Below are positions 978 to 61,334 of a stretch of DNA of 64,000 bases, piece by piece. The translations under genes were made by a program, and so were the position numbers. Below the pieces are notes generated by a model. The model made no database searches. It saw only the letters and a list, made by a program, of their open reading frames with translations, and was not told where the DNA came from. Where the stretch lies: NCBI RefSeq assembly GCF_019222765.1, contig NZ_CP078145.1:4774001-4838000 (forward strand), written 5' to 3'. This stretch comes from Nocardia iowensis. Its GTDB lineage: Bacteria > Actinomycetota > Actinomycetes > Mycobacteriales > Mycobacteriaceae. Every line of letters starts with the position of its first letter. Positions within the stretch are counted from its first letter, which is position 1.

Positions 978-1538
978 ATGAACGATCCGACGCTGTTGGC
1001 ATACATCGAAGTCGAGCCAGGACGGTTTCGCGAAGACCCGGGCTTGCGCTACGAGGACTACGTCGTCGGCCACGTCTTCGAACACCGTCCCGGCCGGACG
1101 ATCACCACCACGGACAACATCTGGAGCTCGCTGCTCTGCCTCAACCAGCACCCGCTCCACATCGACGCGGTCTACGCCGCCGAAACCGAGTTCAACCAAC
1201 TGCTGGTATCCAGCCTGGTGACCTTCGGGATCGTCAACGGCATGACGGTCAAAACCATCAGCCAGCAGGCCGTCGCAAACCTCGGCTGGGACAAGGTCCG
1301 GCTCAACGCCCCCGTATTCGTCGGAGACACGCTGTACGCCGAGACCAGGATCGTCGACAAACGACCGTCGGCCTCCCGGCCGGGCGAAGGCATCGTCACC
1401 GTCCACACCACCGGCCGCAACCAAAACGGCGTCCAGGTCATCGAATTCGACCGCAGCCTGCTCGCGTCCATGCGACACCCGGCAGGCCACCCCGCCGAGG
1501 AAGTAGACGCACTGTCCGGTGGGAAGGCTCGATCATGA
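978..1538 (+). CDS. MaoC-family (R)-specific acyl-CoA hydratase/dehydratase
   Basis: Predicted 186-residue hot-dog-fold enzyme adding water to, or removing it from, an enoyl-CoA-type thioester in the cytoplasm. The middle of the protein (GITVNG-like stretch, VGDTLYAETRIVDKR near residues 115-130) matches the MaoC/mesaconyl-CoA hydratase style, in which a conserved pattern VF.GDTL.AE is typical. The ATG at 978 is preceded by GAGGGAGG at about 964-971. Its stop overlaps the start of the CitE-like gene (ATGA at 1535-1538), so the two are translationally coupled. In known pathways (itaconate, methylaspartate cycle) a MaoC hydratase works next to a CitE-type lyase on branched C5 thioesters. The same pairing here suggests making or breaking a dicarboxyl-CoA unit. 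It is the first gene of the operon. Confidence 0.82.
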   Translation: MNDPTLLAYIEVEPGRFREDPGLRYEDYVVGHVFEHRPGRTITTTDNIWSSLLCLNQHPLHIDAVYAAETEFNQLLVSSLVTFGIVNGMTVKTISQQAVANLGWDKVRLNAPVFVGDTLYAETRIVDKRPSASRPGEGIVTVHTTGRNQNGVQVIEFDRSLLASMRHPAGHPAEEVDALSGGKARS

Positions 1539-2383
1539 ACGTCGACCCGTGCCTGTTCTTCGTGCCTGCATCCCGCGTCGACACTTTGCTCAAAAACGTT
1601 CCGCGGCACTCGATCGCGCTGGTACTCGACCTCGAGGACTCGGTCCCGAAACACGCGAAACCCACCGCCCGCGCGCGGCTCGCCGACGTCGACTTGTCCG
1701 GGACCGGGCTGTCCGGCGTCACGTTGCGCATCAACAGCATCGAAACACCCGACGGGCTGCTCGACATCCAGACCATCCTGGCGCTCGACGGGGAGGTCGG
1801 CGGACTACCCATCCAAACGATCCTGGTGCCGAAAATCATCACCGGCCGCGACGTAGCCATCTACCGCTCACTGCTGTCCGGACTGGTCGACCCGCCCGAA
1901 ATCTGCAGCATCATCGAAACATTGGACGCGGTCGAGAACGTCTTCGACATCGCGGCGGCGAGCAACGGGCTCATTTTCGGGCCCTCCGACCTGGTCGCCG
2001 AGATGTGGGCACCGGACGAGTCCTACCTGTCCCACGCGCGGGCCAGATTGTGCATCGCCGCGTCCCGTTACGGTCTGCCCGCCATCGACGGGAACTCCTT
2101 CGAACTCTGGGACACCGACGTCATTCGAGCCCAGTGTGAGGCCGCGAAGCAATGCGGTTTCACCGGCAAGGCGGCCATACATCCCAGACAGGTCGAACCG
2201 ATCGTCGAGACGTTCGCCGTCGACCCGGAACAACTGGATCGCTACCGCCAGACGATCAAGGACTACGAAGCCGACGACGCGGGCTTCGCCGTCACCAAGG
2301 ACCGGGTACTCGCCCCGCCTTTCGTCCTGAAGGCCCGGCGCATGCTCGCGCTCTACGACGGGAACGCCCGCCCGATCCGCTGA
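1535..2383 (+). CDS. CitE/HpcH-HpaI family lyase (malyl-CoA or citramalyl-CoA lyase-like)
   Basis: 282-residue TIM-barrel aldolase/lyase. Family landmarks are visible: DLEDSV at residues 32-37, an Arg in RINS at 65, catalytic-type Glu in IIETLDAVENV at 128, the Mg-binding Asp in GPSDL at 152, and GKAAIHPRQ at 211-219. These enzymes cleave or form a C-C bond between acetyl-CoA/propionyl-CoA and a 2-oxo acid or aldehyde. Coupling to the upstream MaoC gene by a 4-base overlap suggests a two-step route to an unsaturated acyl-CoA, or its degradation. Substrate cannot be read from sequence. A separate beta chain is not expected for this stand-alone family. It may supply the acyl substrate for the alpha-oxoamine synthase downstream (inference). 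Confidence 0.85.
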   Translation: MNVDPCLFFVPASRVDTLLKNVPRHSIALVLDLEDSVPKHAKPTARARLADVDLSGTGLSGVTLRINSIETPDGLLDIQTILALDGEVGGLPIQTILVPKIITGRDVAIYRSLLSGLVDPPEICSIIETLDAVENVFDIAAASNGLIFGPSDLVAEMWAPDESYLSHARARLCIAASRYGLPAIDGNSFELWDTDVIRAQCEAAKQCGFTGKAAIHPRQVEPIVETFAVDPEQLDRYRQTIKDYEADDAGFAVTKDRVLAPPFVLKARRMLALYDGNARPIR

Positions 2384-2441
2384 CCGACCGAACCACGACA
2401 ACCTCACCCGACAAGGGCGAACCGGAAACTGAGAGGAAATC

Positions 2442-3353
2442 ATGAGCACCTCGATTACCGACATTGTCAAGCAGGCGATGGTCGACGTCTCCGACTACGA
2501 CGTGGCACTGACCGACGGCCGATTCGGCCCGGTGCCAACAGAATTGACGAAGCAGCTGGTATCGCGGGTCGCGGACGGCGAAGGCCTCGGCGTGTGCTGT
2601 GGCGCGAGCGCGCTGCTCGGCAAGCACGGCATGGACGTACACCGTGAAGCCGACGCCACGGCCATGCGCGACTACTTCCAAGCGATCTTCAGCGCGTTCG
2701 TGGCGGCGGTCGACCTCTCGGCGCACAGCCCGCTCGTGATGAACTACGAGAAGGTATCGGGCGTCGACTTGGACGGGTTCAACAAAAACGTCGCCTTCAC
2801 GGTGAACTCCGAACACACCGAGTCGCGGGAATTCCTGAGCACCAAGTGCGTCCACTTCGACTCCGCTACCACGTTCATCGGCAATGTCTACGGCCCGAAC
2901 ACGAACATCACCGGCGGCCTGCCGATCATCTGCGACACCCGGGAATACTGCCGCAGGAAGGGCCTCGATCCGGCCGACCTGGTCGAGCTGATGCCGCACA
3001 GCTACAACGTCGCGGTCAAGCAGGAGTACGCCGACGAGATCCTCGCCGAACACGCGGCCACCGTGGACGCCGACCTGATCGACGACATGATCATGGTCGT
3101 ACTCAACAACGAGGTCTCCGGCGGACTGGCGCACGCGGGTTCCACGCCGCGGCTCGCCGACCCGGCCAAGCCCGGCAAGCGCCCACTGCGTCACATCGAG
3201 TTGCAGTTCGCCGACGACCAGAATCTGCGCAACTGGTACAGCCACTACCGCCTCGATATGCCACAGGTGAAGGTGACCGTGCCCGACGAGCACACCCCCG
3301 ACCACGATCGCTACCACGTGGGTGTGGACGCCGCGCTCCCCGGAACCAGGTAA
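2442..3353 (+). CDS. putative Fe(II)/2-oxoglutarate-dependent oxygenase (clavaminate-synthase/TauD-like)
   Basis: 303-residue protein that I can place only tentatively. It has an HFD triplet (H138-F139-D140), followed about 20 residues later by a GG-containing segment ending in CDTREY (158-169). Further on come NNEV...LAHAG with H231 and an Arg at 250. This order (HxD, GG.x..D, N..distal His, Arg about 20 residues later) matches the jelly-roll Fe(II)/2OG oxygenases of the TauD and clavaminate synthase types, which hydroxylate or desaturate amino-acid-like substrates. The 93-residue HxD-to-His spacing is in the family range. Overall similarity looks remote. The ATG at 2442 follows GAGAGGAAATC. 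It sits between the CitE-like gene and the PLP enzyme, 58 bases after the former. It could be a diverged non-catalytic member. Confidence 0.5.
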   Translation: MSTSITDIVKQAMVDVSDYDVALTDGRFGPVPTELTKQLVSRVADGEGLGVCCGASALLGKHGMDVHREADATAMRDYFQAIFSAFVAAVDLSAHSPLVMNYEKVSGVDLDGFNKNVAFTVNSEHTESREFLSTKCVHFDSATTFIGNVYGPNTNITGGLPIICDTREYCRRKGLDPADLVELMPHSYNVAVKQEYADEILAEHAATVDADLIDDMIMVVLNNEVSGGLAHAGSTPRLADPAKPGKRPLRHIELQFADDQNLRNWYSHYRLDMPQVKVTVPDEHTPDHDRYHVGVDAALPGTR

Positions 3354-3463
3354 CCGACCGGGCGACCGTCGTAGTCAGCCGAAAGCCCTGCGGCGCCGTA
3401 AGTGTGGAGCTGTTTGCCCACCCGGCGCCGCAGGGGCTCTGCTGCGCGACACGAGGGGAACAG

Positions 3464-4723
3464 ATGCACGTCAGAGACAGGGTGCCCGACACGGGAGCCG
3501 AAGAAGAAATCATGGGACCGCACCGGTTCCGGAACAACCAGCGGATGGTCCCGGCGAGCGAGACGGCATGGCAGGTCGTCGCCGACAACGGGATGCTCGA
3601 TATCCGCGTCGACGCCAGCAACGGCCAGAACCGACTGCGCGATGCCCGGACCGGGCACGAGTTCGTCAACCTCGCGTCGTGTTCCTACCTGGGGCTGAAC
3701 AGTCACCCGACGGTCATCGAGGCCGGCATCGCGGCGCTGCGGGAGCAGAACATCACCGGACTTGCCATGGCGGAGTGCCGAATTCGATTGGATGTGATGC
3801 ATCAGCTGGAGGAGGAGCTTTCCGAGCTGTTCGGCGCGCGGGTGTTGCCGTCGATCTCCTGCGGGGTGCTCAGTGCCGCCGTCTTGCCTCTGCTGGGGTC
3901 GGGGCACCTGACCGACACCGATCCGCTGGTTGTCGTGTTCGACAGGTTCGCGCATTTCTCGATGAACTTCGTCAAGCCGATCGTGGCGGATGAAGCGCTG
4001 GTCCTGACGTGTCCGCACAACGACATGGCGTTCCTCGAGGACGTGTGCAAGAAGTATCCCCGCGTGGCCTATGTCTGCGAGGGCGTCTATTCCACCGGTG
4101 GTCGTGCCGACTTGACGGGCATCAAGTCCCTGCAGGAGCGGTACGGAATGTACGTCTACCTGGACGATTCGCACGGATTGTCGACCGAAGGCCCGAACGG
4201 TGCCGGTTACGCCCGGTCAGTGTTCGATGAACTCGACGACCGGACAATGATCGTCGCCTCGATCGCCAAGGCCTTCGGCAGCACCGGCGGCATCGCGATG
4301 ATCGGGTCATCCGGAAAGTTCGACTTCCTGTACCGGACCGGTCCGATGGGCTGGTCCCAGGGGCTGCGCACCGCCGCCGTCGGGACTACCCGAGGCAGCA
4401 TCGCCGTCCATCGCACCCCCGAACTCGTTGCGCGCCAACGTCAGCTGGCGGAGAACATCGACATCTTCGATCGTCGGATGAAGGACCGCGCCGTCCGCGG
4501 CGTCGGATCGCACATCAAGTTCGTCACCGTGGGCGACAACGACCGGGCAGTGCGGCTGTCCACCGAGCTGTACCGGCGCGGCTACTACTGCTCGGCAATG
4601 TTCTTCCCGATCGTGGCGCGCGGGCAGGCCGGCGTCCGAATGATGCTGCGCGGCGACATGACCAGCACGATGACGGACGACTTCGTCACTGTCCTCGAGG
4701 ACGTATTGGACGAGTTCGCATGA
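3464..4723 (+). CDS. alpha-oxoamine synthase (PLP, class II aminotransferase fold)
   Basis: 419-residue PLP enzyme of the KBL/BioF/serine palmitoyltransferase group, which joins an amino acid and an acyl-CoA with loss of CO2 to give an alpha-amino ketone. Key residues are visible: H164 in DRFAHFS (ring-stacking His), D234/D235 and H237 in LDDSHG (pyridine-nitrogen Asp and neighbours), and the Schiff-base Lys K269 in SIAKAFG, followed by GG. The frame stays open far upstream, but ATG 3464 has GAGGGG six bases before it and gives the family length. ATG 3512 is an alternative. The stop overlaps the next gene by ATGA. With CitE/MaoC upstream and an OCD-like enzyme downstream, it is the likely C-C bond-forming core of this pathway. 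Amino acid and acyl substrates are unknown. Confidence 0.85.
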   Translation: MHVRDRVPDTGAEEEIMGPHRFRNNQRMVPASETAWQVVADNGMLDIRVDASNGQNRLRDARTGHEFVNLASCSYLGLNSHPTVIEAGIAALREQNITGLAMAECRIRLDVMHQLEEELSELFGARVLPSISCGVLSAAVLPLLGSGHLTDTDPLVVVFDRFAHFSMNFVKPIVADEALVLTCPHNDMAFLEDVCKKYPRVAYVCEGVYSTGGRADLTGIKSLQERYGMYVYLDDSHGLSTEGPNGAGYARSVFDELDDRTMIVASIAKAFGSTGGIAMIGSSGKFDFLYRTGPMGWSQGLRTAAVGTTRGSIAVHRTPELVARQRQLAENIDIFDRRMKDRAVRGVGSHIKFVTVGDNDRAVRLSTELYRRGYYCSAMFFPIVARGQAGVRMMLRGDMTSTMTDDFVTVLEDVLDEFA

Positions 4724-5655
4724 CTGCGGCAAATTCTCCCGCCATGTCGTCCGTCCGGCTCGTCCGGGTATTGGCCGAGTCGATGCGCGAGGGGCTGCGC
4801 AGCGGTGCTGTCGGTCGGATGCTGGTCCCGGTCCGGGAAACCATCGAGGACGCCACCGGAACGAAGTTCCTCTCGATGCCCGCCGTGTCGCCCGACCACG
4901 ACCTCTACATCAACAAGGTCGCGACGATCGCCGCCGCGCCGGGTCACGGCACGACCGTGACCTCGGTGGTGCCGATGTTCGCCGCTTCCACCGGACGATT
5001 CCTCGGCACCTTGGACGGCGCCGCGGTCACCAACCTGAAATGCGCTGCCGTGACGGCTTTGGTGACCGACCGGTGCGCAGCGCCGGAAAGCCGGGTCCTG
5101 GGGATCATCGGGTCGGGCGTACAGGCTCGCCAGCAGTTCCTCGGGGTGTCCGCGATACGCGACCTCACCGAGGTCCGCATCTGGTCCCGCGACGCGGGCC
5201 ACGCCGCAGCGTTCGCCGGTGACGTCGCGGCGGCCGACCCGACAGTGAATGTGGTCGTCTGTGACTCGGCCGAGCACGCCAGCCGCGGTGTCGACGTCCT
5301 GTCGACCGCGACCACCTCGATGTCTCCCCTGCCGATCTCGGCGGAGCTGCCCGCGCACGTGCACATCAACTGCATGGGCGCGCACACCACCGAGTCACGC
5401 GAAATACCGGTCGAGCTGCTCCGTTCCAGCGTCGTGATCGTCGAGGACCTGCGCACCGCGATCGCCGAGGCGGGTGAGAGTCACAGTACCGCAATCGAAC
5501 TCGACACTCTCGTGACAACGGATCCCGCCGATTTCAGGGACAGGCGGACGGTTTTCGCCTCCACCGGGTGCGCATATCTGGACCTGATCACCTGCGCCCA
5601 ACTGGCCGCTCAGCACGACGCGGAGGACTTCTGGACAGCGAGTCTTCCCCTGTGA
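4720..5655 (+). CDS. ornithine cyclodeaminase/mu-crystallin family protein
   Basis: 311-residue NAD(P)-binding protein of the OCD/alanine dehydrogenase/mu-crystallin family, whose members deaminate and cyclise amino acids or reduce imines. The Rossmann motif GSGVQA is at 131-136, and the substrate-side Lys of INKV is at 66. The family segment usually reading LDG..LT..RTAA appears as LDGAAVTNLKCAA, so the Arg that holds the substrate carboxylate in ornithine cyclodeaminase is Lys107 here. That change suggests an altered substrate, such as the amino ketone or imine made by the alpha-oxoamine synthase with which it is translationally coupled (ATGA overlap at 4720). It could equally act as an imine reductase. 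Start could also be Met9. Confidence 0.8.
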   Translation: MTAANSPAMSSVRLVRVLAESMREGLRSGAVGRMLVPVRETIEDATGTKFLSMPAVSPDHDLYINKVATIAAAPGHGTTVTSVVPMFAASTGRFLGTLDGAAVTNLKCAAVTALVTDRCAAPESRVLGIIGSGVQARQQFLGVSAIRDLTEVRIWSRDAGHAAAFAGDVAAADPTVNVVVCDSAEHASRGVDVLSTATTSMSPLPISAELPAHVHINCMGAHTTESREIPVELLRSSVVIVEDLRTAIAEAGESHSTAIELDTLVTTDPADFRDRRTVFASTGCAYLDLITCAQLAAQHDAEDFWTASLPL

Positions 5656-5690
5656 CCAGGACACAGACCATGCCAAAGGAGGAACACGCA

Positions 5691-5942
5691 GTGGACGACT
5701 TCGGACAAGGCCGGGTCTCGAACACAGGCACCCGCGGGAACGGAGCACCGGCCGAGCAACCCTCCGACGAGGCGATCGAGGCCGAATACGACGCCTGCAC
5801 AAGGCGACTCGGCATCGAGGTGCCCGCGGATCTCAAGGGCGGCATCCTGCGCGGCTATCGGGGACTGCGGGACATGGCCGCGGCACTGCGCGACGTCCCG
5901 GTCCAGTCGACGAGAGAGCGAAAGGAAACGCCCAATGGCTGA
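5691..5942 (+). CDS. AtzG/GatC-like small subunit of an amidase, 83 aa
   Basis: Short acidic protein. I choose GTG 5691 because a strong AAAGGAGG (5675-5682) lies eight bases before it; ATG 5670 is upstream of that site. The C-terminal half reads YDACTRRLGIEVPADLKGG and continues with RGLRDMAAALRDVPV. This is the pattern of AtzG-like proteins (DUF4089), in which LG.xV......v...l..l...A..L...p is conserved. AtzG-type proteins form a GatC-like partner of an AtzE-type amidase and stabilise it. Its stop overlaps the start of the adjacent amidase gene by eight bases, exactly the arrangement expected for a two-subunit amidase. The assignment rests on pattern and position, since the protein is short. 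Confidence 0.65.
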   Translation: MDDFGQGRVSNTGTRGNGAPAEQPSDEAIEAEYDACTRRLGIEVPADLKGGILRGYRGLRDMAAALRDVPVQSTRERKETPNG

Positions 5943-7404
5943 CGGAGTGGCGGCTCGGCCGTCTACCGCGCTGCACGAGCTGTCGGTTCCGGAGGCGGGG
6001 GCGTTATTACGCGCGGGTGAGCTGACTTCGGTGGAGCTTACCCGGCACGCGCTCGACCGGATCGCCCGGCTCGATTCCGCGCTGCACGCCTTCATCCTGG
6101 TGACGGAGGAGAGCGCGCTGCAACGTGCGCGAGCAGCCGATCGAGACTTGCGAGCCGGCGTCGATCGCGGTCCGATGCACGGGATTCCGTACGCGTTGAA
6201 GGACATCTTCGACGCGGAGGGGGTGCCGACCACCAATGCCTCATGGCTCTGCGTCGACCACGTGGCCGGTGCGGACAGCACGGTCGAGCGGCGCCTGCGG
6301 GCCGGGGGTGCGGTCGGTCTCGGCAAGCTGACCACCTTCGAGTTCGCGCTCGGCGGCCCGAGTTTCGAGTTGCCGTTCCCGCCCGCACGCAACCCGTGGA
6401 GCGATGAGCACGTGCCGAGTGGTTCGTCGTCGGGTGCGGGTGCCGCGGTCGCCGCCGGACTGGTCCGTGCCGCCGTCGCCTCCGATACCAGCGGATCGAT
6501 CCGCGGCCCGGCATTCCACTGCGGCGTGGTCGGGCTCAAACCGACCTACGGCCGAGTGTCCGGGCATGGCGCTCAGCCGCTTTCGCATACCCTGGACCAC
6601 TTCGGCACGCTGAGCTGGACAGTCGGCGACACGGCCGCACTGTTACAGGTGCTCGCGGGCGCCGATCCGGCCGATCCGCGCACAGCCGACACTCCGGACC
6701 CGAACTACCTTGCGACGCTGAACCATGGCGTCGCCGGGCTGCGCGTAGCCAGTGCGCCGGGCTGGTACGCCGAAGATCCCTCGACGATGCCCGAGATCCT
6801 CGCCGGAATCGAGGAGGCGCTCGGGGTGCTCGACGGCCTGGGTGCGACGGTCGGGCAAGTCACCTTGCCCCCGTACGACGTATTCAACGGGTGCGGCCGC
6901 GTCATCTTCGGTGCGGAGGCGTTCGCCACCTATGAGGACGATCTGCGCAAGCACCCACGCTCTTTCGCGCGCTACACCTATCAGCGCATGATGCCAGGAG
7001 CCGGACTCGGGGCGGCGGATCTGTTGCGCGCCTATGACGTTCGGCGATGGCTGATCCAGCAACTCGACGAGATCGTTTTCGGTCAGCACGACGTCCTGGT
7101 CATGGCATCCGGCCAGACCACCGCCGCCCGATGGGGCGATTTCCCCGAGAACTGGCCGCCACCAAAGCTGGTCAACGACATGCTCGCCATTCCGTTCAAT
7201 GTCACCGGTCATCCGGCGCTGTCGCTGCCCATCGGGTTCGCCGCGAACGGCCTGCCCATCGGCCTGCATATCATCGGACGCGCGTTCGACGAGGCGACGG
7301 TGTTCCGCGTGGCGTCGGCGCTGGAAGCCGCACTGGGACAACGCCATCGACGTCCGCCAGAACCTTCGGAAGTCGCCTCGGCAGAGGGGAACCGTCGGAT
7401 ATGA
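5935..7404 (+). CDS. amidase signature family hydrolase (AtzE/GatA-like)
   Basis: 489-residue amidase signature enzyme, cytoplasmic. The Ser-cisSer-Lys triad is complete: K89 in ALKDIF, S164 in the GSSSGAG stretch, and nucleophile S188 in SDTSGSIRGP. Length is normal. The residue before the nucleophilic GS pair is Ser rather than the common Gly. It follows the AtzG-like gene with an overlap, and ATG 5935 has GAAAGGAAA upstream, so the two products probably form a complex like AtzE-AtzG or GatA-GatC. In this operon it could hydrolyse an amide/carbamoyl intermediate or transfer an acyl or amino group in assembly of the product. No GatB-like partner is nearby, so tRNA amidation is unlikely. It is followed by the LLM gene with a 4-base overlap. 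Confidence 0.88.
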   Translation: MADGVAARPSTALHELSVPEAGALLRAGELTSVELTRHALDRIARLDSALHAFILVTEESALQRARAADRDLRAGVDRGPMHGIPYALKDIFDAEGVPTTNASWLCVDHVAGADSTVERRLRAGGAVGLGKLTTFEFALGGPSFELPFPPARNPWSDEHVPSGSSSGAGAAVAAGLVRAAVASDTSGSIRGPAFHCGVVGLKPTYGRVSGHGAQPLSHTLDHFGTLSWTVGDTAALLQVLAGADPADPRTADTPDPNYLATLNHGVAGLRVASAPGWYAEDPSTMPEILAGIEEALGVLDGLGATVGQVTLPPYDVFNGCGRVIFGAEAFATYEDDLRKHPRSFARYTYQRMMPGAGLGAADLLRAYDVRRWLIQQLDEIVFGQHDVLVMASGQTTAARWGDFPENWPPPKLVNDMLAIPFNVTGHPALSLPIGFAANGLPIGLHIIGRAFDEATVFRVASALEAALGQRHRRPPEPSEVASAEGNRRI

Positions 7405-8372
7405 AGCCGTTTCACTTCGCCACACCGGCTGCCTCCGGCGTGGTGAGCCCGAAGGCGATACAGGAGACTGCTCGATTCGCCGAGTCGGTGGGATTCGGGA
7501 CGCTGGTCCTTCCGGATCACCTGGATGTGCCATACGCCCCCATCCCGCTGCTGACGGCGGCGGCGTTGGCCACCGAACGCATTCGCGTCTGCCCTTATGT
7601 CCTGAACGTCGACTTCCGGCATCCGGCCGTGGCCGCGCAGGAGCTCGCCACTCTGGATTTGTTATCCGAGGGAAGGCTGACCATCGGGTTGGGTGCGGGC
7701 TGGAACCGACCCGAATACTTGACGACCGGGATTCCATTCGAACCGGTCGGAGTGCGCGTTACCCGAGTGCGCGAAGCAGTCGCGGTACTCAAAGGCTGCT
7801 TCGGGGACAAGCCTTTCTCGTACGCCGGGGACAATTACACGATTACCGAGCACGACGGTCAGCCCAAACCCTTTCACCCGGCAGGTCCGCCGTTCCTGCT
7901 CGGCGGCGGGGGCCGGAAAATGCTGGCGTCAGCGGCACAGCTGGCCGATATCGTCGGGCTGGCGCCGCGAGTGCCCCCCAGCCGCCCTGGCGGCGTCTTC
8001 TTCGAGCCGGCCAGCATCACCTTCGCGGCGACGGCCGAGAAAATCGCCTGGATCCGCAAGGCGGCCGGCGAACGGTTCGACGAGCTGGAGTTGTCGACCT
8101 ACGCCTCGGCGATTCATCCGTCCGCCCTGCCGGTCACGGTGACCGACAATGCGCTGGCCATCGCGCGGAGCTGCGTCGACGACATCTGCTCCCGCACCGG
8201 CGCGGAATTGACCGTAGACGAGTACCTGGACTCGCCGCACGTATGGATAGGCACGATCGACCAATTGACCGAAAAGTGCCTGTCATTGCGAGAACGCCTA
8301 GGGATCAGTCATTTCATGCTGGGACCGCCGCGGGTCTGCGCCGAACTGGTCGAGCGGTTGGCCGGACAGTAG
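7401..8372 (+). CDS. LLM-class (luciferase-like, F420/FMN) oxidoreductase
   Basis: 323-residue TIM-barrel flavin- or F420-dependent oxidoreductase. Visible landmarks are the N-terminal beta strand KPFHFATP, LVLPDHLDVPYAP near residues 34-46, the LDLLSEGRLTIGLGAGW segment (about 85-101) that recurs in actinobacterial F420-type LLM proteins, and GGGGRKML near 168-175. Such enzymes either reduce a C=C/C=N bond with F420H2 or oxygenate with reduced flavin. ATG 7401 overlaps the amidase stop (ATGA), so it is a coupled member of the operon. The MFS gene begins at the base after its stop. A reduction or oxidation step on the operon's product is the reasonable role. The cofactor cannot be decided from sequence alone. 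Confidence 0.85.
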   Translation: MKPFHFATPAASGVVSPKAIQETARFAESVGFGTLVLPDHLDVPYAPIPLLTAAALATERIRVCPYVLNVDFRHPAVAAQELATLDLLSEGRLTIGLGAGWNRPEYLTTGIPFEPVGVRVTRVREAVAVLKGCFGDKPFSYAGDNYTITEHDGQPKPFHPAGPPFLLGGGGRKMLASAAQLADIVGLAPRVPPSRPGGVFFEPASITFAATAEKIAWIRKAAGERFDELELSTYASAIHPSALPVTVTDNALAIARSCVDDICSRTGAELTVDEYLDSPHVWIGTIDQLTEKCLSLRERLGISHFMLGPPRVCAELVERLAGQ

Positions 8373-9653
8373 ATGAGCATCGTTCGATATGCCGAGAAAT
8401 TCGAGCGGAAGACGCGCTCACGCGTAGACCGCAAGAGGTCGAGCGCGGGCGTGCAGTGCGCGGTGTTGTATTTCCTGTTTTTCGTGATGGGCACCGAGGG
8501 CTACTTGATGCCGCCGATCCTGCCGACAATCGCCGCGGACCTGAAGGTATCGGTACCACTGGCCGCCGCGGCGGCCACCGCGTTCGTGGTGGCGTACGCG
8601 GTGTTCGGGCCGCCGCTCGGTGTGCTGTCGGACGTTCTCCCCAAGCGGGGGCCGATCCTTGTCGGGATGGCGCTGTTCGCGGTCACCAATATCTGCGTCG
8701 GCTTGGCGCAGAACCTCCCCCAGCTGGTCGTCGCCCGAGTGCTGATGGGAGTCAGCGCGGCAGTCGCCACCCCGGCGGCGTGGGCGCACCTGTCCGAGGT
8801 CTGTCCCCCTGGGCGGCGTGGACGTGCGGTCGCCCGCGGTTTCGCGGCGTACGGGCTCGGCCAAGTGATCGGTGTCCCGCTGGGGGCCTTCGGCACGCTC
8901 GCCGTCGGGTGGCGCCTGCCCTACATCGTCATCGGCGTCGGCTTCCTGCTCGTGCTGCTGTGCGCGTGGCGGACGGTCGACACGATCCACCCGCGCGATA
9001 CCGTCATGCGCTGGTCGAATCTGTTCCGGCCCTTGCTGTCTCCCGTGGTGTGTCTGGCGTTGGCCGCCACGTTCGCGGTAATGGCGGGACGGCTGGGCGC
9101 TTTCACCTATCTCGGCGCACTGCTGGAGATGCGGTTCGGATTCGACGTGGTCGCAAGTGGGCTGGTCGGTGTCCTGGTCGGCGTCACCGTCATCGCGGGT
9201 TCGCTGCTGAGCGGATCGCTGATAGACATCCAACGCCGGAGCGGCCGAAGCGAAGCCTGGGTGATGGTGGCGAGTTCGCTCATCTTCGCGGCGGCCGTGG
9301 CAATAGCGGTGCTCAGCGGAGCGCTATGGCTCTTCCTCGTCGCACTGGTGCTCTGGTGTCTGGCGGGCAGCGTGTTCTATTCGGCGCAACAGGCATATCT
9401 GGCGAATATGCGCTCCGATACCCGAACCACCCTGGTTGCTTGGCACAGCACCGTCATGAGCTTCGGAAACGCTTCGGGCAACACCATTCTCGGCAGTGTC
9501 CCGATCGGCGGCGGCGCGTTCGCCGCGATTGCCGCGGGACTTGGCGTACTCGGCGCGGCTTTGGCGTTCTCGGTCATGCGGGTGCAGCGCCTGCGGAACT
9601 CCGCGCCCCATGGTCCGACCCGTAAAGCGACCTCGGTGACTGTTGGCAGGTAG
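8373..9653 (+). CDS. MFS transporter, probable exporter of the operon product
   Basis: 426-residue major facilitator protein with about 12 hydrophobic segments. The first is YFLFFVMGTEGYLMPPILPTI; the second and third flank the loop PLGVLSDVLPKRG, which is the motif A position (G...D..G/R). A second GSLLSGSLIDIQRRSGR loop in the C-terminal half repeats that pattern. The N-terminal 30 residues are very basic. ATG 8373 directly abuts the LLM stop, so translation is coupled. The family profile is that of drug or metabolite efflux. The most likely job is export of the small molecule made by this operon, and perhaps self-protection (inference from position). Confidence 0.85.
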   Translation: MSIVRYAEKFERKTRSRVDRKRSSAGVQCAVLYFLFFVMGTEGYLMPPILPTIAADLKVSVPLAAAAATAFVVAYAVFGPPLGVLSDVLPKRGPILVGMALFAVTNICVGLAQNLPQLVVARVLMGVSAAVATPAAWAHLSEVCPPGRRGRAVARGFAAYGLGQVIGVPLGAFGTLAVGWRLPYIVIGVGFLLVLLCAWRTVDTIHPRDTVMRWSNLFRPLLSPVVCLALAATFAVMAGRLGAFTYLGALLEMRFGFDVVASGLVGVLVGVTVIAGSLLSGSLIDIQRRSGRSEAWVMVASSLIFAAAVAIAVLSGALWLFLVALVLWCLAGSVFYSAQQAYLANMRSDTRTTLVAWHSTVMSFGNASGNTILGSVPIGGGAFAAIAAGLGVLGAALAFSVMRVQRLRNSAPHGPTRKATSVTVGR

Positions 9654-9714
9654 CACATTTGGCGACGGTCAGCATAACCGCGTCGGTATGCTCACAGCAC
9701 CGGAGGTGCCCGTC

Positions 9715-10554
9715 ATGCTCCATCTGTTGGCGCTGGAGATCAATGTCGTGACGCACTGCAATCTTTCCTGCGTGGGATGCAGCCATTCGAGTCCGGCGGC
9801 GGCGGAAGGCTTCGCCGACGTTGCCACGGTCGGCCGGGATTTCTCGGCGCTGGCCGATGTCGTCGAGCCGGTCTATGTGCGGCTCGTCGGCGGCGAACCG
9901 CTGCTGCATCCGGAGTTGGACCAGATCATCGGGGCCATCAGGTCGGCGATGCCGCATGCGATTATCCGGCTGTACACCAACGGCACTCGTATCGATAAGG
10001 GAACGTCACCGTGGCTCGCCGCCCTCGATGAGTTGCTTGTCTCGGTGTATCCCAGAGCAGCCGTTCCCGATTCGACACTGCGCCATCTGGCCGCCGAATG
10101 CGCCACGGCAAATACCACCCTGCTGGTAGAACGATTCTTCGCTTTCCGCGCCAGCCGCCCGACCCGCCAGCTGACCGCCACCGAAGCACGCCAGGTATTC
10201 CAGACCTGCCAGATGGCGCACGCGAAGAGCGCGCACATCGTCCAGGACGGGCATGTCTATCTGTGCCCGATGTCGGCGCCCGCCACCATTGCCCGGCACG
10301 ACGGTCCGTCCTGCCGCATCGAACCCCACGACACCCTCGAACACCGACTCAGCGCCTTCCTCAACCGCAAGGACCCATTGGCCAAGTGCCACAATTGCCT
10401 CGGCACCGTGGGGTCGCGACTGCCGCATGCGATGGCCTCTCGAAAGACCTGGGTCGAGTTGAGCACCCGCGGCGAGATCGACTACTCGCATATGGACGTC
10501 TTGCTGCGCGATCCGGACTCGAACAATTTCTGCTCTGTCGCCGAGACCTGGTGA
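9715..10554 (+). CDS. radical SAM protein with C-terminal cysteine-rich region
   Basis: 279-residue radical SAM enzyme. The cluster-binding motif CxxxCxxC is at C15, C19 and C22 (HCNLSCVGC), followed by the GGEPLLHPEL segment that contacts SAM. The C-terminal half holds further Cys residues (CQMAH, YLCPM, SCRI, KCHNC), resembling a SPASM/twitch-type auxiliary cluster region as in peptide- and small-molecule-modifying members. ATG 9715 is chosen for GGAGGTG six bases upstream; earlier in-frame starts at 9643 (TTG) and 9688 exist. It follows the MFS gene by about 60 bases and ends the plus-strand operon, six bases before a convergent gene. Its substrate is unknown. No precursor-peptide gene is evident beside it. 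Confidence 0.85.
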   Translation: MLHLLALEINVVTHCNLSCVGCSHSSPAAAEGFADVATVGRDFSALADVVEPVYVRLVGGEPLLHPELDQIIGAIRSAMPHAIIRLYTNGTRIDKGTSPWLAALDELLVSVYPRAAVPDSTLRHLAAECATANTTLLVERFFAFRASRPTRQLTATEARQVFQTCQMAHAKSAHIVQDGHVYLCPMSAPATIARHDGPSCRIEPHDTLEHRLSAFLNRKDPLAKCHNCLGTVGSRLPHAMASRKTWVELSTRGEIDYSHMDVLLRDPDSNNFCSVAETW

Positions 10555-10560
10555 CCGGAT

Positions 10561-12987
10561 TCAGCTTCTGCGGTTCCCGCGAGAACTGCTGAGCACCGCA
10601 GTCGCCTCGTCCATGCGGCGGGAGAGATCGTCGAGGACAATTCGGTTGTTCCGTTCCGTGACAACGGGCAACGCTTCGTTCCATGCCTTCAGCGCTTCGG
10701 TCGGCTTCTGCAGCAGCGATTGCGCCTTGCCCATCTCGATCATCGCCATGGCATTCCACCACCGGTCCGCGGCTCGTTCGAGCACCGGTATCGCGGCGCC
10801 CAGCGCGGTCATCGCCCGCCGGCCGTCACCGGAGTCGACGTAGGTGCGGGCACGGTGCACCTGTGCGACGGCGGCCCGGCGTTCGTCGCCGAGGCGGCGC
10901 AGCACGGCCAGGCTGGCATCGAGTCGCTCGATGGCCGCCGCGTATGCGCCGCGACCTCGATAGACGTCGCCGATCCAGATACCGGCGTTCGCCTCCCACC
11001 AGTCGTCCCCGTGCCGCCGAAAGACCGGCATGCACACGTCGAATTCCCGAAGTGACCTCTCGTACTGCGATTTCTGGTGATAGATATCGGCGATGTTCGC
11101 CGTGACATATCCCCACGCATGATCGTGCGAGGCCTCGTCATAGATGTCACGCGCCTCTTCGAAGAGGCGAAGGGCAGCGTCGACGTCGCCGTTCTGGTGG
11201 ACCTTGCCGATCGCGCAGACGCAGGCCGCCTCGATCGGCCGGATGCCATGCTCGATCGCGAGCGTCCTGGCCTGCGCCAACTCCGGCAGCGCGTCCGTCC
11301 ACGAACCGAGCAGATGGTGCACCCGGCCGAGCTGGAACAGGAACAGACTGCGCGCGGCGTCGTCGTGCACTGCGACCGCCGCCGAGAGCCCGCATTTCGC
11401 GAGCGACTCCCACTCCCGCCAGTAGGTGCACTGCTCGCAGAAGGCGCTGAGCGAGAACGCCAATTCGATGACCGGCGGCATGCATTCGTCGAGCAGCAGC
11501 TGGTTGGCGAGCAGCAGCAAACTCGGCAGTTCGGTTTCACACCACAGCGCCGCCGTCTGAGGTGAATCGAGGTGAACGGTAGATGGGCGCGGCTCGGTGG
11601 GCAGTTCGAGCACGGGAAATATGTTGTGCCGCGGCGCACCACGACGTATCCAGAGGTCGGCGGCGCGCGCCGTGGCGGCATACGCACCGCCAACCGTTTG
11701 CAAGGTGGAAGCGGTTACCGCGGCGCTGTCGGGCAGTGCGGCCAGCTTCTCCCTGGAGAACTCGCGGACCAGGTCGTGGTAGCCGTACCGGCTGTTCCCC
11801 AGCGGATCAGGTCCGAGGAAGTCGAGCAATTCCTCTTCGACCAGTTCGTCGCGGCTCGAGCGGGTGGAATCCTGCGTGTCGAGCAACTCGAAGACCCAGT
11901 CGGGAAACGTCGTGATGCTCAATGCGCCAAGGGAAGAGAACAGCAGACCCGCCTGCGATGAGATCGCGACATAGCTGATTTCCAGCGTCGACCGCACCGC
12001 TCGTTGCCCATCGGTGAGCGACGGCAGGAGTGCCTGCTGGCTGAGCAGACGCTGCACCAGTTCCTGGATGGACCAGTGCGGATTGACCGCCAGCCGGGCA
12101 CCCAGAATCCTGATCGCGAGCGGGAGGTAGGCCGCGAGTTCGACCAACTTCCTGGTCGCCTCGATTTCCCGGTCGGCACGCTCGCGGCCGACGATCTCGC
12201 GCAACAGATCGATCGCCTCCCCCGGCGCCATCACGTCCAGGCGCAGCCGCGTGATCCCGTCGAGTGTCGCCAGCCGGGCACGACTGGTGATCAGCACGAC
12301 GCTGGTCGACTCGCCGGGCAGCAATGGCTGCACCTGCGCCTCGGACTGGGCGTTGTCCAGCAGCATCAGTATGCGACGACGGCCCAGAATGGATCGGAAC
12401 AGCCGGGACCGGTCGTCGAGCGAGACCGGAGCGGCATCCGGCGCCACTCCCAACTCCCGCAGCAACGCACCGAGCACTTCATAAGGATCGAGTGCCTGGG
12501 CTTCCGGCCCTCGAAGGTTGACGTAGATCTGCCCGTCCGGAAACGCATCCGCCACCAAATGCGCCACGTGCACCGCGAGTACCGTCTTGCCGACTCCGCC
12601 GCGACCCGAAATCGCGGTTATCAGCACGGCATTCCGACTCTTCGGCGCTTTGACCAGCGCCCGCACCAGCAGCCGCACCTCCTGACTGCGTCCCGCGAAA
12701 TCCAACAGGTCCCTCGGCAACTGGTTCGGCGGCGGTCCCTGCTCGGCCAGGCCCGAGGCCGCACCACGAACGTCTAGGGACAACGCGATCTGAATCGAGG
12801 TCAGCAGCCCCACCACCAGTGCCGCGACCACCCCCACGACAACGCGCACCTCGGGTGACAGCCCGCTCGCACCCGCGAACAACGACAGATAGGCCCCGGC
12901 TCCGGCGATCAACGCAATCGCGGTGAGCCGCACTACCTTGCCAGTACCCCGACCGAGCCGGGCCCGCCGAAACGCCGGAAGCCACAT
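10561..12987 (-). CDS. STAND ATPase: N-terminal membrane helices, NB-ARC, TPR repeats
   Basis: 808-residue protein of the AfsR/NB-ARC group. Two hydrophobic helices (about 21-41 and 48-69) come first. The NB-ARC domain follows, with Walker A GRGGVGKT at 128-135, a Walker B-like RILMLLDNA near 205-213, and an ITSRARL sensor segment. The C-terminal 350 residues are Ala/Leu-rich helical repeats of TPR type, with recurring A...LG and GD.R motifs. Unlike AfsR, it lacks the SARP DNA-binding part, so it is not itself an obvious transcription factor; the N-terminal helices would place it at the membrane. It is convergent with the biosynthetic operon (six-base gap), so linkage to that operon is uncertain. 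It could act as a signalling switch or defence-type STAND protein. Confidence 0.8.
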   Translation of the reverse strand: MWLPAFRRARLGRGTGKVVRLTAIALIAGAGAYLSLFAGASGLSPEVRVVVGVVAALVVGLLTSIQIALSLDVRGAASGLAEQGPPPNQLPRDLLDFAGRSQEVRLLVRALVKAPKSRNAVLITAISGRGGVGKTVLAVHVAHLVADAFPDGQIYVNLRGPEAQALDPYEVLGALLRELGVAPDAAPVSLDDRSRLFRSILGRRRILMLLDNAQSEAQVQPLLPGESTSVVLITSRARLATLDGITRLRLDVMAPGEAIDLLREIVGRERADREIEATRKLVELAAYLPLAIRILGARLAVNPHWSIQELVQRLLSQQALLPSLTDGQRAVRSTLEISYVAISSQAGLLFSSLGALSITTFPDWVFELLDTQDSTRSSRDELVEEELLDFLGPDPLGNSRYGYHDLVREFSREKLAALPDSAAVTASTLQTVGGAYAATARAADLWIRRGAPRHNIFPVLELPTEPRPSTVHLDSPQTAALWCETELPSLLLLANQLLLDECMPPVIELAFSLSAFCEQCTYWREWESLAKCGLSAAVAVHDDAARSLFLFQLGRVHHLLGSWTDALPELAQARTLAIEHGIRPIEAACVCAIGKVHQNGDVDAALRLFEEARDIYDEASHDHAWGYVTANIADIYHQKSQYERSLREFDVCMPVFRRHGDDWWEANAGIWIGDVYRGRGAYAAAIERLDASLAVLRRLGDERRAAVAQVHRARTYVDSGDGRRAMTALGAAIPVLERAADRWWNAMAMIEMGKAQSLLQKPTEALKAWNEALPVVTERNNRIVLDDLSRRMDEATAVLSSSRGNRRS

Positions 12988-16363: not shown

Positions 16364-17554
16364 TTATCGCGCGTCTTCCCTCGGTTCGGTGTCGCTGTCC
16401 AACCAGGAGCGGATGCGGTCGGTTCCGGAACCGAGCGCGGGCGGCGGGTTTGTGTAGCGAACTGGATTGCGAGACAGGGTGATCGGGTTGGCGACCAACG
16501 GTGGCATGTCGGCAGTGCCCGACGAGATGCGGGGTTGCAGACCGAGCCGGTCGGCGAGTGTGAAAGCTCCCGCCATATCGTTGACGGGTCCACACGGGAC
16601 GCCGAGCGGGGTGAGCAGCGCCTCCCAGTCGGCGGCAGGACGGGTCGACAAGATCTCGCCCAGCTGCTCGGCCAGCACCTCGACATGCGCGACCCGCGTG
16701 GCGTTGTCGATGAATCGCGGGTCCACGGCCAGTTGTTCGGCTCCGATCGCCTCGCACAGCGTCGTGAATTGTCCGTCGCTGCCGACGGCCAACGCCAGGG
16801 GTAGGTCCGCGGTGGGAAATACTTCGTAGGGGGCGATGGAAGGGTGCCGGTTGCCGAGGATGGTGGGCACGACACCCGCCAGCGAGTACGCCGCGCTTTG
16901 ATTCACCATGCCCGCCAGCAGACTGGACAGCAGATTGACCTCGACGAGCTGTCCTTCGCCGGTGGCGTCGCGATGGCGAAGTGCGGCAAGAACTCCCACC
17001 GTCGCATGCAGACCCGCGAGAACGTCGACCACCGCCACACCCGTCTTGGTCGGCTCCCCCGCCCGCGGCCCGGTGATACTCATCAGACCGCCCGCGGCTT
17101 GGATCAACAGGTCGTAGCCCGGCAGCTCAGCGCCCTTGCCGCCACCGAACGCGGACAACGAGCAGTAGACGAGCCGCGGATTGAGCGCGCGAGCCTGTTC
17201 GTAGGCCAGTCCGAACTTCGCCATGGTGCCTGGCCGGAAGTTCTCGACCACGATGTCGGCTCGGCGCACCAGTTCCCTGGCATAGCGCTGCCCTTCCTCG
17301 CTGCGCAGGTCGAGCGCTACCGACGTCTTGTTCCGATTCACCGATTGGAAGTAGGTGGACTGACCGTCCACGAACGGCGGCCCCCAGCCGCGGGTGTCGT
17401 CACCGACGCCGGGCCGTTCCACCTTGATCACCTCGGCGCCTAGGTCGGCCAGCAGCATTGTCAGGTAGGGCGCGGCGAGGATCCTGCCGAAGTCCGCGAC
17501 CACAATCCCGGACAGGACGCCTAGCGTTCGATTCTCGTCGGTCATACCCGCCAC
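16364..17554 (-). CDS. family III (CaiB/BaiF) CoA transferase
   Basis: 396-residue CoA transferase. The nucleophilic Asp that forms an aspartyl-CoA intermediate is D148 in the diagnostic LPGYDLLIQAAGGLMS segment. N-terminal family marks RILAAPYLTMLLADLGAEV (24-42) and NRNKTSVALDL (73-83) are also present. These enzymes move CoA between acyl-CoA donors and carboxylic acid acceptors such as carnitine, formate/oxalate or arylacids. Start is Met1, or Met4 (MTDENRTLG). It lies 75 bases downstream of a flavoprotein monooxygenase on the same strand, so the two may share a catabolic role on a carboxylic acid. The substrate cannot be deduced. Confidence 0.88.
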   Translation of the reverse strand: MAGMTDENRTLGVLSGIVVADFGRILAAPYLTMLLADLGAEVIKVERPGVGDDTRGWGPPFVDGQSTYFQSVNRNKTSVALDLRSEEGQRYARELVRRADIVVENFRPGTMAKFGLAYEQARALNPRLVYCSLSAFGGGKGAELPGYDLLIQAAGGLMSITGPRAGEPTKTGVAVVDVLAGLHATVGVLAALRHRDATGEGQLVEVNLLSSLLAGMVNQSAAYSLAGVVPTILGNRHPSIAPYEVFPTADLPLALAVGSDGQFTTLCEAIGAEQLAVDPRFIDNATRVAHVEVLAEQLGEILSTRPAADWEALLTPLGVPCGPVNDMAGAFTLADRLGLQPRISSGTADMPPLVANPITLSRNPVRYTNPPPALGSGTDRIRSWLDSDTEPREDAR

Positions 17555-41276: not shown

Positions 41277-42179
41277 TCAGACGGTGAATTCGGTGCCATC
41301 GGCCAGAATCTCTACACCTGCTTGCGCAACCAGCGCCCGCGCGCTCGACGACGGGTCGAGCAGCGGGTTGGTGTTGTTGAGGTGGGTATAGATTCGGCGC
41401 AGTCCAGGGTGGCGAGCTAGGGCAGCGAGCGTGCCGCCTGGCCCGGCCACGGGCAGGTGGCCCATGAGGGATTGCCCCGCGTCCGAATCCGGTGATCGCA
41501 CGGCCGAGCCCAGTTCTTTCGCGCTGAAGAAAGTGCCATCCACCAGCGCGCAACCTGCTGAGCCCAGTAACTCGTCCAGGCCGTTCGGCCAACTTGCCAA
41601 GCAAGGGGCGTACACCAGCGCACTGCCGGTGGCCAGGTCCTCGATCCGGAAGGCGGTCACCCAGTGGTCGTCGATCGATGCCGCGGTGACGTACTTCGGT
41701 GCCTTGGCGCTCACCGGTTGCGCGACGACGCGGAGCCCACCGGCCAGTTCGAAGCCGCCCGGCACGGTGCTGTCGCGCCAGGTCCACGGTCCGTAGCGGT
41801 CGAGCAGTCCGCGTAACGGCAGGCCCGCGCCGAGCGCGCCCAGCACCGGCGGCGGAGCGTAGACAGTCAGACCGCGGGCCCCGCGCATGGTGGTGAGGCC
41901 GAGCGTGTGGTCCACCTCGCCATCGGTGAGCAGCACGCCGCGCACGGGCGTGTCCCGCGGTCCTGGACCGGGCCGCAGATCCGGCGTGGCGAGCAGCTGC
42001 GCACGAATGTCCGGTGAGGCGTTGAGCAGCCACCAGTCGCGCGAATTGCCGCTGATGGCGACGCATTCCTGGCTGCGCGGCGGCAATGCGCCGCGGCGGG
42101 CGCCGAGACAGAGTGCGCAGGCACAGTTCCATTGCGGGAAACCACCTCCGGCGGCGGTACCGAGCAAAATCAGCTTCAC
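41277..42179 (-). CDS. pqqB: PqqB, PQQ biosynthesis metallo-beta-lactamase-fold protein
   Basis: 300-residue PqqB. N-terminal LLGTAAGGGFPQWNCACALC matches the family, including the Cys-rich CNC.C zinc site. The metallo-hydrolase HxD-type block is TDGEVDHTLGL at about 85-95, and the C-terminal YTHLNNTNPLL gives the late His. PqqB hydroxylates a tyrosine-derived intermediate in PQQ synthesis. The start is GTG 42179, which overlaps the pqqE stop by four bases. The usual order pqqABCDE is changed: here pqqB is last. Confidence 0.92.
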   Translation of the reverse strand: MKLILLGTAAGGGFPQWNCACALCLGARRGALPPRSQECVAISGNSRDWWLLNASPDIRAQLLATPDLRPGPGPRDTPVRGVLLTDGEVDHTLGLTTMRGARGLTVYAPPPVLGALGAGLPLRGLLDRYGPWTWRDSTVPGGFELAGGLRVVAQPVSAKAPKYVTAASIDDHWVTAFRIEDLATGSALVYAPCLASWPNGLDELLGSAGCALVDGTFFSAKELGSAVRSPDSDAGQSLMGHLPVAGPGGTLAALARHPGLRRIYTHLNNTNPLLDPSSSARALVAQAGVEILADGTEFTV

Positions 42180-43261
42180 GGAGCCGCCTGCGCCCGCATG
42201 GTGAAGGCCGGTTCCGCTGTCTCGGTCAGCGCGGCGTCCACCAGCGGCCGGTGCGGGGAGAGACCGCACGCCGGGTCGGTGGCCGCGGCGTCTCCGGTGA
42301 ATTGGAATGCCTGGCAACGGCAGCCGCCGAAGTCGGTGAAGCGTTCGGGGCAGGAGCGGCACGGTTCGCGCATCCAGGCGGTGCCCCGGTAGGCGTTGAA
42401 TGTCTTTGACAAATACCAGATCTCGGCCAGCGGGCGAAGCAGCACGTTCTCCACCGGCAGCGTGGTGATGGCCGATGCCGCCGGGCAGGGCAGGACATTT
42501 CCCTCGGGGGTGACCGTCAGTTGGAGCCTGCCCCAGCCGTCCATGCATGGTTTCGGCCGATCGGCGAAGTAATCCGCCACCACATAGACCAACTCGGGGC
42601 CGTCCGCGTATTTCACCCTGGCACGCTGCACAGCCTCCCGTGCGGCGTCGAGCTGTACCGCGGTGGGCAGCAGCGCGGCGCGGTTGCGCAGTCCCCAGCC
42701 GTAGTACTGGGTGTTGGCCAGCTCGACTCGATCAGCGCCGAGACCGACGGCGAGATCGACGATCCGCTCGACCCGATCGATGTTGGTCCGATGTAGCACA
42801 ACGTTCACGGTGAGCGGCAAGCCCGCAGCCGTAATCGCCTCGGCCGCACGCAGTTTGACGGCGTGCACGCGCGCCCCCGCGATCAGGTCCGCGTTTCGCG
42901 AATCCGCGTCCTGCATGGAGAGCTGAATGTGGTCGACGCCGCGCTCCGCAAGCAGTCGAGCCCGCTCGACGGTCAGACCGACGCCGCTGGTCACCAGGTT
43001 GACGTAGGCACCCAATTGCCGGGCGTGCGCGATCAACTCGGGCAGATCCGAACGGGCCAGCGGCTCGCCGCCGGAGAAGTGCATCTGCACCACCCCGAGT
43101 TCGCGAGCCTGAGTGAGCACGTCGATCCACTGCGCACCGGTCAGTTCCCTTGCGCGCGAGACGAGTTCAACGGGGTTGGAGCAGTAGGGACAGTGCAGCG
43201 GGCAACGATGGGTCAGCTCGATCAACATTCCCAGCGGTGCCTCGACAGGTGTTTCAGTCAC
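42176..43261 (-). CDS. pqqE: PqqE, radical SAM enzyme of PQQ synthesis
   Basis: 361-residue radical SAM/SPASM enzyme that cross-links Glu and Tyr side chains of the PqqA peptide. CxxxCxxC is at C20, C24 and C27 (RCPLHCPYC), with SGGEPL afterwards. The SPASM-type auxiliary Cys set lies in the C-terminal third (KPCMDGW, VLPCPAA, EPCRSCPERFTDFGGCRCQAF). It needs PqqD as chaperone, and pqqD lies directly upstream with an eight-base overlap. Length and motif order are normal. Confidence 0.95.
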   Translation of the reverse strand: MTETPVEAPLGMLIELTHRCPLHCPYCSNPVELVSRARELTGAQWIDVLTQARELGVVQMHFSGGEPLARSDLPELIAHARQLGAYVNLVTSGVGLTVERARLLAERGVDHIQLSMQDADSRNADLIAGARVHAVKLRAAEAITAAGLPLTVNVVLHRTNIDRVERIVDLAVGLGADRVELANTQYYGWGLRNRAALLPTAVQLDAAREAVQRARVKYADGPELVYVVADYFADRPKPCMDGWGRLQLTVTPEGNVLPCPAASAITTLPVENVLLRPLAEIWYLSKTFNAYRGTAWMREPCRSCPERFTDFGGCRCQAFQFTGDAAATDPACGLSPHRPLVDAALTETAEPAFTMRAQAAP

Positions 43262-43514
43262 CTAGAGCCACCACCCGCCGCTGGGCGAGCCGGTCCAGCA
43301 ACTCGGCGATGTCCTGAGCGCGGACGCCCTCGTACGTCTCGCCGAGCCGCGCCGCGATGGTATCGATGCTCGACGAGCCGTCGCAGAGTGCCAGCACCGC
43401 GGCGGCGGTGTCGTTGAGGACGACCACTCCTTCGGGTAACAGGGCCAGCTCGCCGTGCGCCGGATCGCGGGCCAACCGGACTCCGGGGCGTAACCGCGGC
43501 ACCGGCCCGGCCAT
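43254..43514 (-). CDS. pqqD: PqqD, peptide chaperone for PqqE
   Basis: 86-residue protein with the PqqD pattern: PRLRPGVRLARDPAHGELALLPEGVVVLNDTAAAVLALCDG in the first half, then helical AARLGETY...DIAELLDRLAQRRVV. PqqD binds the PqqA peptide and presents it to PqqE. ATG 43514 overlaps the pqqC stop; the longer frame continues upstream only as pqqC shadow. Its end overlaps pqqE by eight bases. Confidence 0.93.
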   Translation of the reverse strand: MAGPVPRLRPGVRLARDPAHGELALLPEGVVVLNDTAAAVLALCDGSSSIDTIAARLGETYEGVRAQDIAELLDRLAQRRVVALGD

Positions 43515-61295: not shown

Positions 61296-61334
61296 CGGTC
61301 GTTTCCTCCTCTGCGCCCGGACAGGTCGGCGCGA

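Follow-up and report, generated by a model that had tools for sequence, protein, structure and literature searches.

A candidate amino-ketone pathway in Nocardia iowensis with an alpha-oxoamine synthase, a predicted Fe(II)/2-oxoglutarate oxygenase and a probable imine reductase

Alaremycin is the product of an alpha-oxoamine synthase (AOS), arphamenines are said to be made by a benzylmalate route, and for ketomemicin we follow the order in which its pathway steps reportedly run. Arphamenines and ketomemicins are reported to be the only natural ketomethylene pseudopeptides known, and the ketomemicin cluster (ktmA-F; hosts Salinispora, Streptomyces mobaraensis and Micromonospora) consists of an aldolase, a C-acyltransferase, a dehydratase, an ATP-grasp ligase, an amidinotransferase and a dehydrogenase (PMC11943689). 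The dynaplanin pseudopeptide cluster is small and AOS-based, and antiSMASH did not mark it as relevant; its proposed route has DynZ couple phenylacetyl-CoA to arginine together with a GNAT partner (PMC9239090). Here we analyze an AOS operon in a stretch of 64,000 nucleotides (the window; G000:C1:4774001-4838000) of Nocardia iowensis NZ_CP078145.1, a genome of one 8.95 Mb contig. The original prediction, made from these letters, described ten genes at 978-10554 as a candidate biosynthetic operon built around an AOS, without polyketide synthase (PKS) or non-ribosomal peptide synthetase (NRPS) and not recognized from any described pathway.

The window operon resembles the ketomemicin cluster in that a CitE-type lyase, an AOS and a MaoC-type hydratase stand close together, equivalent to an aldolase, a pyridoxal phosphate (PLP)-dependent C-acyltransferase and a dehydratase; the likeness is one of enzyme class and logic, with orthology unproven. 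Unlike ketomemicin, the ten genes include neither a KtmD-like ATP-grasp ligase nor a KtmE-like amidinotransferase, and they add a gene outside known families (gene 3), a protein of the ornithine cyclodeaminase (OCD) family, an amidase with a small partner and a luciferase-like monooxygenase (LLM)-class oxidoreductase. Where ketomemicin has one dehydrogenase (KtmF), the ten genes include two possible reductases, LLM and OCD. Amidinotransferases belong to PF02274, and the sole match to it in the genome lies at 7,886,908, about 3.1 Mb from the operon. The two ligase profiles searched genome-wide gave ATP-grasp (PF13535) matches more than 1 Mb away and no match to the glutathione (GSH)-synthetase-type ligase profile (A6). 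Dynaplanin differs in that the description of dynVWXYZ names neither an aldolase nor a dehydratase (PMC9239090). Itaconate degradation supplies the top-scoring models for the window MaoC (RipB/Ich) and CitE (RipC/Ccl); unlike RipABC, the window enzymes score under the RipB and RipC cut-offs and are joined to an AOS, and Pfam and NCBIfam found no RipA-type CoA transferase among the ten genes. A family III CoA transferase-like open reading frame (ORF), recognized by eye, lies on the minus strand at 16364-17554, about 6 kb beyond the operon. In open-access papers, no description of the gene set was found among the matches listed. The view that the whole set matches no recognized pathway therefore held, with ketomemicin as a partial precedent (aldolase, dehydratase, AOS; PMC11943689) that the original prediction did not name. 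We place the operon with AOS-based, NRPS-independent small-molecule clusters, its gene set being without description in the literature searched.

All ten ORFs called in 978-10554 lie on the plus strand, and the predicted close coupling was confirmed at five of nine junctions (four overlap, one abuts), or six with 9643 instead of 9715 as the start of the radical S-adenosylmethionine (SAM) gene. The overlaps measure 4 bases at MaoC/CitE, AOS/OCD and amidase/LLM and 8 bases at small ORF/amidase; the LLM and major facilitator superfamily (MFS) genes abut (8372/8373), and 58 bases separate CitE from gene 3. Pfam and NCBIfam assigned eight ORFs to the predicted families (MaoC, CitE, AOS, OCD, amidase, LLM, MFS and radical SAM) and matched neither gene 3 nor the small ORF before the amidase, so that the label AtzG-like is unproven for the latter; family searches found no PKS or NRPS among the ten, as predicted. 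Of 150 Nocardia genomes, 4 carried gene 3, as did 1 of 251 in an even sample of the family, this being N. iowensis itself. All four Nocardia keep MaoC, CitE, gene 3, AOS, OCD, small ORF, amidase, LLM and MFS in one colinear order. For the radical SAM gene, the whole genomes of the other three Nocardia with the operon hold no orthologue (best 27 bits), and it was rejected as an operon member; the conserved unit is thus 978-9653, nine of the ten genes proposed, and the radical SAM gene is probably not part of the operon.

Conservation was followed across 27 loci, 23 from an alignment scan with gene 3 together with the window locus, G299, G352 and G703; all except G703 were found via gene 3. A gene was counted when its best tblastn hit reached at least 80 bits (at least 38 bits for the small ORF) anywhere in the locus, its position within the cluster being free, and absences hold within flanks of about 10 kb for most loci. 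One 43,153-base N. altamirensis contig retrieved twice (G258 and L005) was counted once. G085 was excluded because the 20 kb retrieved from it hold no match to gene 3 or OCD, and AOS clusters without gene 3, such as this one, are under-sampled. ORFs in relatives were called by a simple GC-position rule, which makes their gene boundaries approximate; family names in relatives come from one or few representatives.

In 27/27 loci, which range from Nocardia and Streptomyces to Corallococcus and Burkholderia, gene 3, AOS and OCD were colinear. This trio is preceded by MaoC and CitE in 20/27, and all 20 loci with the five genes keep the order MaoC-CitE-gene 3-AOS-OCD on a single strand. The amidase occurs in 15 loci and the small ORF in 11; LLM and the window-type MFS are each found in 4, only the four Nocardia, and the radical SAM gene in 1. 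Relatives carry genes that the window operon does not: a second, IPNS/EFE-type 2-oxoglutarate (2OG) oxygenase in 23/27 loci, all except the four Nocardia; an alpha/beta hydrolase in 22 (in three of these 31-32% alike and outside the gene 3/AOS interval); an isopropylmalate synthase (IPMS)-like gene in 16 (one, L023, only 30% alike); and a predicted GSH-synthetase-type ligase in 21 of the 23 non-Nocardia loci, with no full match in the four Nocardia genomes. An aminopeptidase-P-like M24 peptidase was found in 10/27 (two on the opposite strand), classical ATP-grasp genes in 8 and CAR-like genes in 6. Seven Corallococcus loci have no CitE or MaoC and carry instead a double ketosynthase, a thioesterase, an aldo-keto reductase and a zinc dehydrogenase (named from L024). 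Tree distances between the five genes correlate (r 0.88-0.97, host descent uncontrolled), and the midpoint-rooted trees of gene 3 and AOS, read without support values, place the Nocardia clade with Streptomyces loci bearing the extra genes. These sequence comparisons fit a single cluster family that was reduced in Nocardia, perhaps after transfer there. The conserved neighbourhood expected by the original prediction was thus recovered, the colinearity of nine genes in four Nocardia and of the core in 27/27 loci exceeding what chance would give, and scattering of the genes in relatives, named there as a refutation, did not occur. Its biosynthetic operon centered on the AOS is borne out by this neighbourhood and its biosynthetic look, less so for LLM and the MFS type given their restriction to Nocardia.

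Some loci showed features of their own. Burkholderia ubonensis (L023) has both AOS and gene 3 in duplicate within one locus, the AOS genes at 63% and 46% and the gene 3 copies at 46% and 35%. Streptomyces purpureus-type clusters (L008, L010, L018 and G703, the latter L039-L040) have two further genes, which by their L008 representatives encode an R2-like oxidase (weak match) and a protein resembling amino acid--[acyl-carrier-protein] ligase. G085 (L041), from another genus of the family, has an AOS-CitE-MaoC-ATP-grasp run. The N. iowensis genome itself holds two LeuA-like matches (55-56%), candidates to replace the IPMS-like synthase in trans, and weaker IPNS-like matches of 74 bits (41% over part) and 63 bits (31%), neither set with any reason for a link to the operon. 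An isopropylmalate-synthase-like gene lies at G000:C1:4201043-4202410 (485-aa frame), second to one at 436184 (671-aa frame).

Judged by its sequence, gene 4 can be classed as a BioF/Kbl-type PLP-dependent AOS, with a PRK07505 score over the cut-off and an invariant K253. This residue, which we take to be the catalytic lysine, and H148, D218 and H221, whose roles we likewise assume, are invariant in 28 aligned sequences, G085 included. Its best PDB sequence match was 8xha (246 bits, E 8e-72), tied with 8xhd, 8xhk and 8i7u. 8xha is Alb29, the albogrisin AOS, thus the best-scoring solved AOS, which can use L-glutamate; the AOS reaction is reported to be irreversible and to form a C-C bond (PMC11906848). 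The AOS is rare, since 3 of 396 genomes in a phylum sample, N. iowensis included, had a match at E <=1e-60 (up to four candidates scored per genome). The window AOS search is represented by the best 120 of 435 matches. For the G085 AOS, the best 120 of 1027 matches listed have Mycobacterium and Acidobacteriota/Thermoanaerobaculia among named relatives and no named Salinispora (KtmB) AOS.

Gene 3 had no PDB match by sequence up to E 1. Its best named homologues are from Nocardia, and one source labels a homologue TauD/TfdA-like. Structural matches to its predicted fold were led by Fe/2OG oxygenases, which are distant (TM 0.33-0.41), and H138, D140, H231 and R247 (HxD...H...R) are invariant in 63 aligned sequences; residues 117-130, before the HxD motif, are predicted at pLDDT <50. 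Fold, HxD...H metal triad and 2OG-binding arginine together support the earlier guess, and we predict that gene 3 encodes an Fe(II)/2-oxoglutarate oxygenase. BesD-type lysine halogenases, also considered, were not among the fold matches listed, which excludes nothing.

The OCD protein was best matched in the PDB by mu-crystallin/thiomorpholine-carboxylate dehydrogenase, with lysine cyclodeaminases following at lower score. Every listed cyclodeaminase model stayed below its cut-off, and the position of the cyclodeaminase active-site aspartate, in a motif we take to be GDCP, reads G220-A-H222 in the window protein. On these two grounds the protein does not fit ornithine cyclodeaminase; the family label given earlier stands, and the protein is probably an NAD(P)H-dependent imine/ketimine reductase-like enzyme rather than a cyclodeaminase.

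MaoC scored 210 bits against the RipB/Ich model (cut-off 340), and its best PDB sequence match was 8hgn, a beta-methylmalyl-CoA dehydratase. CitE reached 120 bits against RipC (cut-off 375), with 3qll, named citrate lyase, as best PDB match. The amidase gave 286 bits against the AtzE model, below the cut-off of 461, and is labelled AtzE/GatA-like here; K89, S164 and S188, whose roles we presume, are invariant in 15 aligned sequences.

We hypothesize that the nine genes at 978-9653 encode a self-contained pathway whose product, a small amino-ketone metabolite, is exported; to this we give about an even chance. Gene families, conservation, predicted folds and active-site conservation were observed; from them we infer every substrate, the direction and order of the steps, and the roles in the third, fifth and sixth. 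CitE would join an alpha-keto acid and acetyl-CoA, in the reverse of the citramalyl-CoA lyase reaction, to a 2-hydroxy-2-alkyl-succinyl-CoA (step 1), which MaoC would dehydrate to an alkylfumaryl/itaconyl-type CoA (step 2). In Nocardia, the F420-dependent LLM may then reduce the double bond, in the place that KtmF may hold in ketomemicin (step 3). The PLP-dependent AOS would condense the branched dicarboxylic acyl-CoA with an amino acid, releasing CO2 and CoA, to a 5-amino-4-oxo (delta-amino-gamma-keto) acid, which would be a ketomethylene pseudodipeptide or a substituted aminolevulinate (step 4). Gene 3 may hydroxylate or desaturate this product, and OCD may reduce an imine, perhaps cyclic, formed by the ketone (step 5). 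The amidase and its small partner may hydrolyze an amide, and the MFS protein would export the product (step 6). Outside Nocardia, gene content suggests that the GSH-synthetase-type ligase then joins the unit to another amino acid; with no full ligase match in the four Nocardia genomes, their product is probably the unligated unit.

Several observations weigh against this hypothesis. An ene-reductase role for LLM is a guess, as 23/27 loci have no counterpart, and the confinement of LLM to Nocardia means that step 3 is not core. In the seven Corallococcus loci gene 3-AOS-OCD stands without CitE and MaoC, which means that some members may obtain the acyl-CoA by a route other than CitE, and G085 combines AOS, CitE and MaoC without gene 3 or OCD. 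RipB, RipC and AtzE model scores are all below cut-off, and the likeness to ktm appears at the level of enzyme classes, not of a sequence comparison with KtmA, KtmB and KtmC. A plain amino ketone offers OCD no obvious imine, which leaves its substrate unexplained. This last difficulty would disappear if the AOS used an amino acid with a side-chain amine, such as ornithine, 2,4-diaminobutyrate or an arginine derivative: the aminoketone would close to a cyclic imine, OCD would reduce it to an amino-piperidine or amino-pyrrolidine, gene 3 would hydroxylate the ring, and the product would be a small cyclic amine instead of a linear ketomethylene unit. OCD stands beside AOS in 27/27 loci and scores best with ketimine/cyclic-imine reductases. 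However, the G085 AOS (45% identity) has no adjacent OCD, and Alb29, the closest solved AOS, can use L-glutamate, which has no side-chain amine (PMC11906848). We regard the cyclic product as possible, and clearly less probable than the linear one.

CitE and MaoC may instead supply a simple block, for example mesaconyl-CoA from glyoxylate and propionyl-CoA, with an enone aminoketone that stays unsaturated as the AOS product and LLM acting elsewhere. The absence of LLM from most loci and the MaoC match to beta-methylmalyl-CoA dehydratase agree with this, but the best-scoring model for CitE is that of the citramalyl-CoA lyase RipC; we consider this reading improbable. Least probable of all, and in our view very unlikely, is a catabolic operon: an amide would enter through the MFS protein, be opened by the amidase and be oxidized by LLM, and an itaconate-like CoA ester would be hydrated by MaoC and cleaved by CitE. 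In its favor could be counted the degradative role of RipB/RipC-like enzymes in the itaconate pathway, the often catabolic function of AtzE-like amidases and the CoA transferase-like ORF at 16364-17554. Against it, no CoA transferase stands among the ten genes, relatives carry IPMS-like, GSH-type ligase, CAR-like (6/27) and, in Corallococcus, tandem ketosynthase genes, and the AOS reaction is described as an irreversible one that forms a C-C bond (PMC11906848).

Table 1. Features of the operon region in window coordinates.
Feature	Position	Strand	Evidence
MaoC-type enoyl-CoA hydratase/dehydratase	978..1538	+	PF01575 68 bits
CitE-type C-C lyase/aldolase, RipC/Ccl-like	1535..2383	+	PF03328 (HpcH/HpaI) 68 bits
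Gene 3, predicted Fe(II)/2-oxoglutarate oxygenase	2442..3353	+	predicted structure; outside Pfam families
AOS, BioF/Kbl-type	3512..4723, alternative start 3464	+	PRK07505 452 bits, cut-off 342
OCD/mu-crystallin family, probable NAD(P)H imine reductase	4720..5655	+	PF02423 112 bits
Small ORF, AtzG-like by position only	5691..5942, alternative start 5670	+	8-base overlap with amidase
Amidase-signature hydrolase, AtzE/GatA-like	5935..7404	+	PF01425 304 bits
F420-dependent LLM-class oxidoreductase	7401..8372	+	TIGR03621 254.5 bits, cut-off 213
MFS transporter, probable exporter	8373..9653	+	PF07690 (MFS_1) 151 bits
Radical SAM protein, probably outside operon	9715..10554, alternative start 9643	+	PF04055 32 bits

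The ten genes are followed by a convergent NB-ARC/TPR gene on the minus strand (10561-12987) and preceded by about 600 bases without a clear gene. In G299 and G352 (L035-L038), two Nocardia, two divergent ORFs resembling XRE-type regulators by eye lie upstream of the operon. About 6.6-3.6 kb before the window (L003:11433-14388) are an S-adenosylmethionine decarboxylase (PF02675), an alanine-dehydrogenase/PNT-like protein, a methyltransferase and a fourth protein without a Pfam match, methyltransferase-like by eye; the SpeD, alanine dehydrogenase and methyltransferase genes were rejected as cluster members, being seen beside the window copy only among the fetched Nocardia flanks. Farther away on the minus strand are a radical SAM-like ORF and its neighbor, PqqE- and PqqC-like by eye (42176-44227), and, about 47 kb from the operon, two large ORFs of 1065 and 873 aa (58098-63956), of which that at 58098-61295 matches a Corallococcus ketosynthase at about 34% and begins, by eye, like a modular PKS.

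At its broadest, the locus may represent an unrecognized NRPS-independent family of pseudopeptide or cyclic amino-ketone pathways, with a core of AOS, unclassified Fe/2OG oxygenase and imine reductase, spread by horizontal transfer among Actinomycetota, Myxococcota and Burkholderia. In full members the GSH-synthetase-type ligase would attach an amino acid to the aminoketone unit, the products would resemble peptidase inhibitors, the M24 peptidase (10/27 loci) would be a self-resistance copy, and the Nocardia operon would be a stripped-down branch exporting the bare warhead. We put this forward tentatively and think it rather unlikely to hold as a whole. If the family is real, an AOS family with an oxygenase outside Pfam and an imine reductase would extend AOS pseudopeptide chemistry, and gene 3 adjoining AOS and OCD would be a search handle for clusters that mining tools may overlook.

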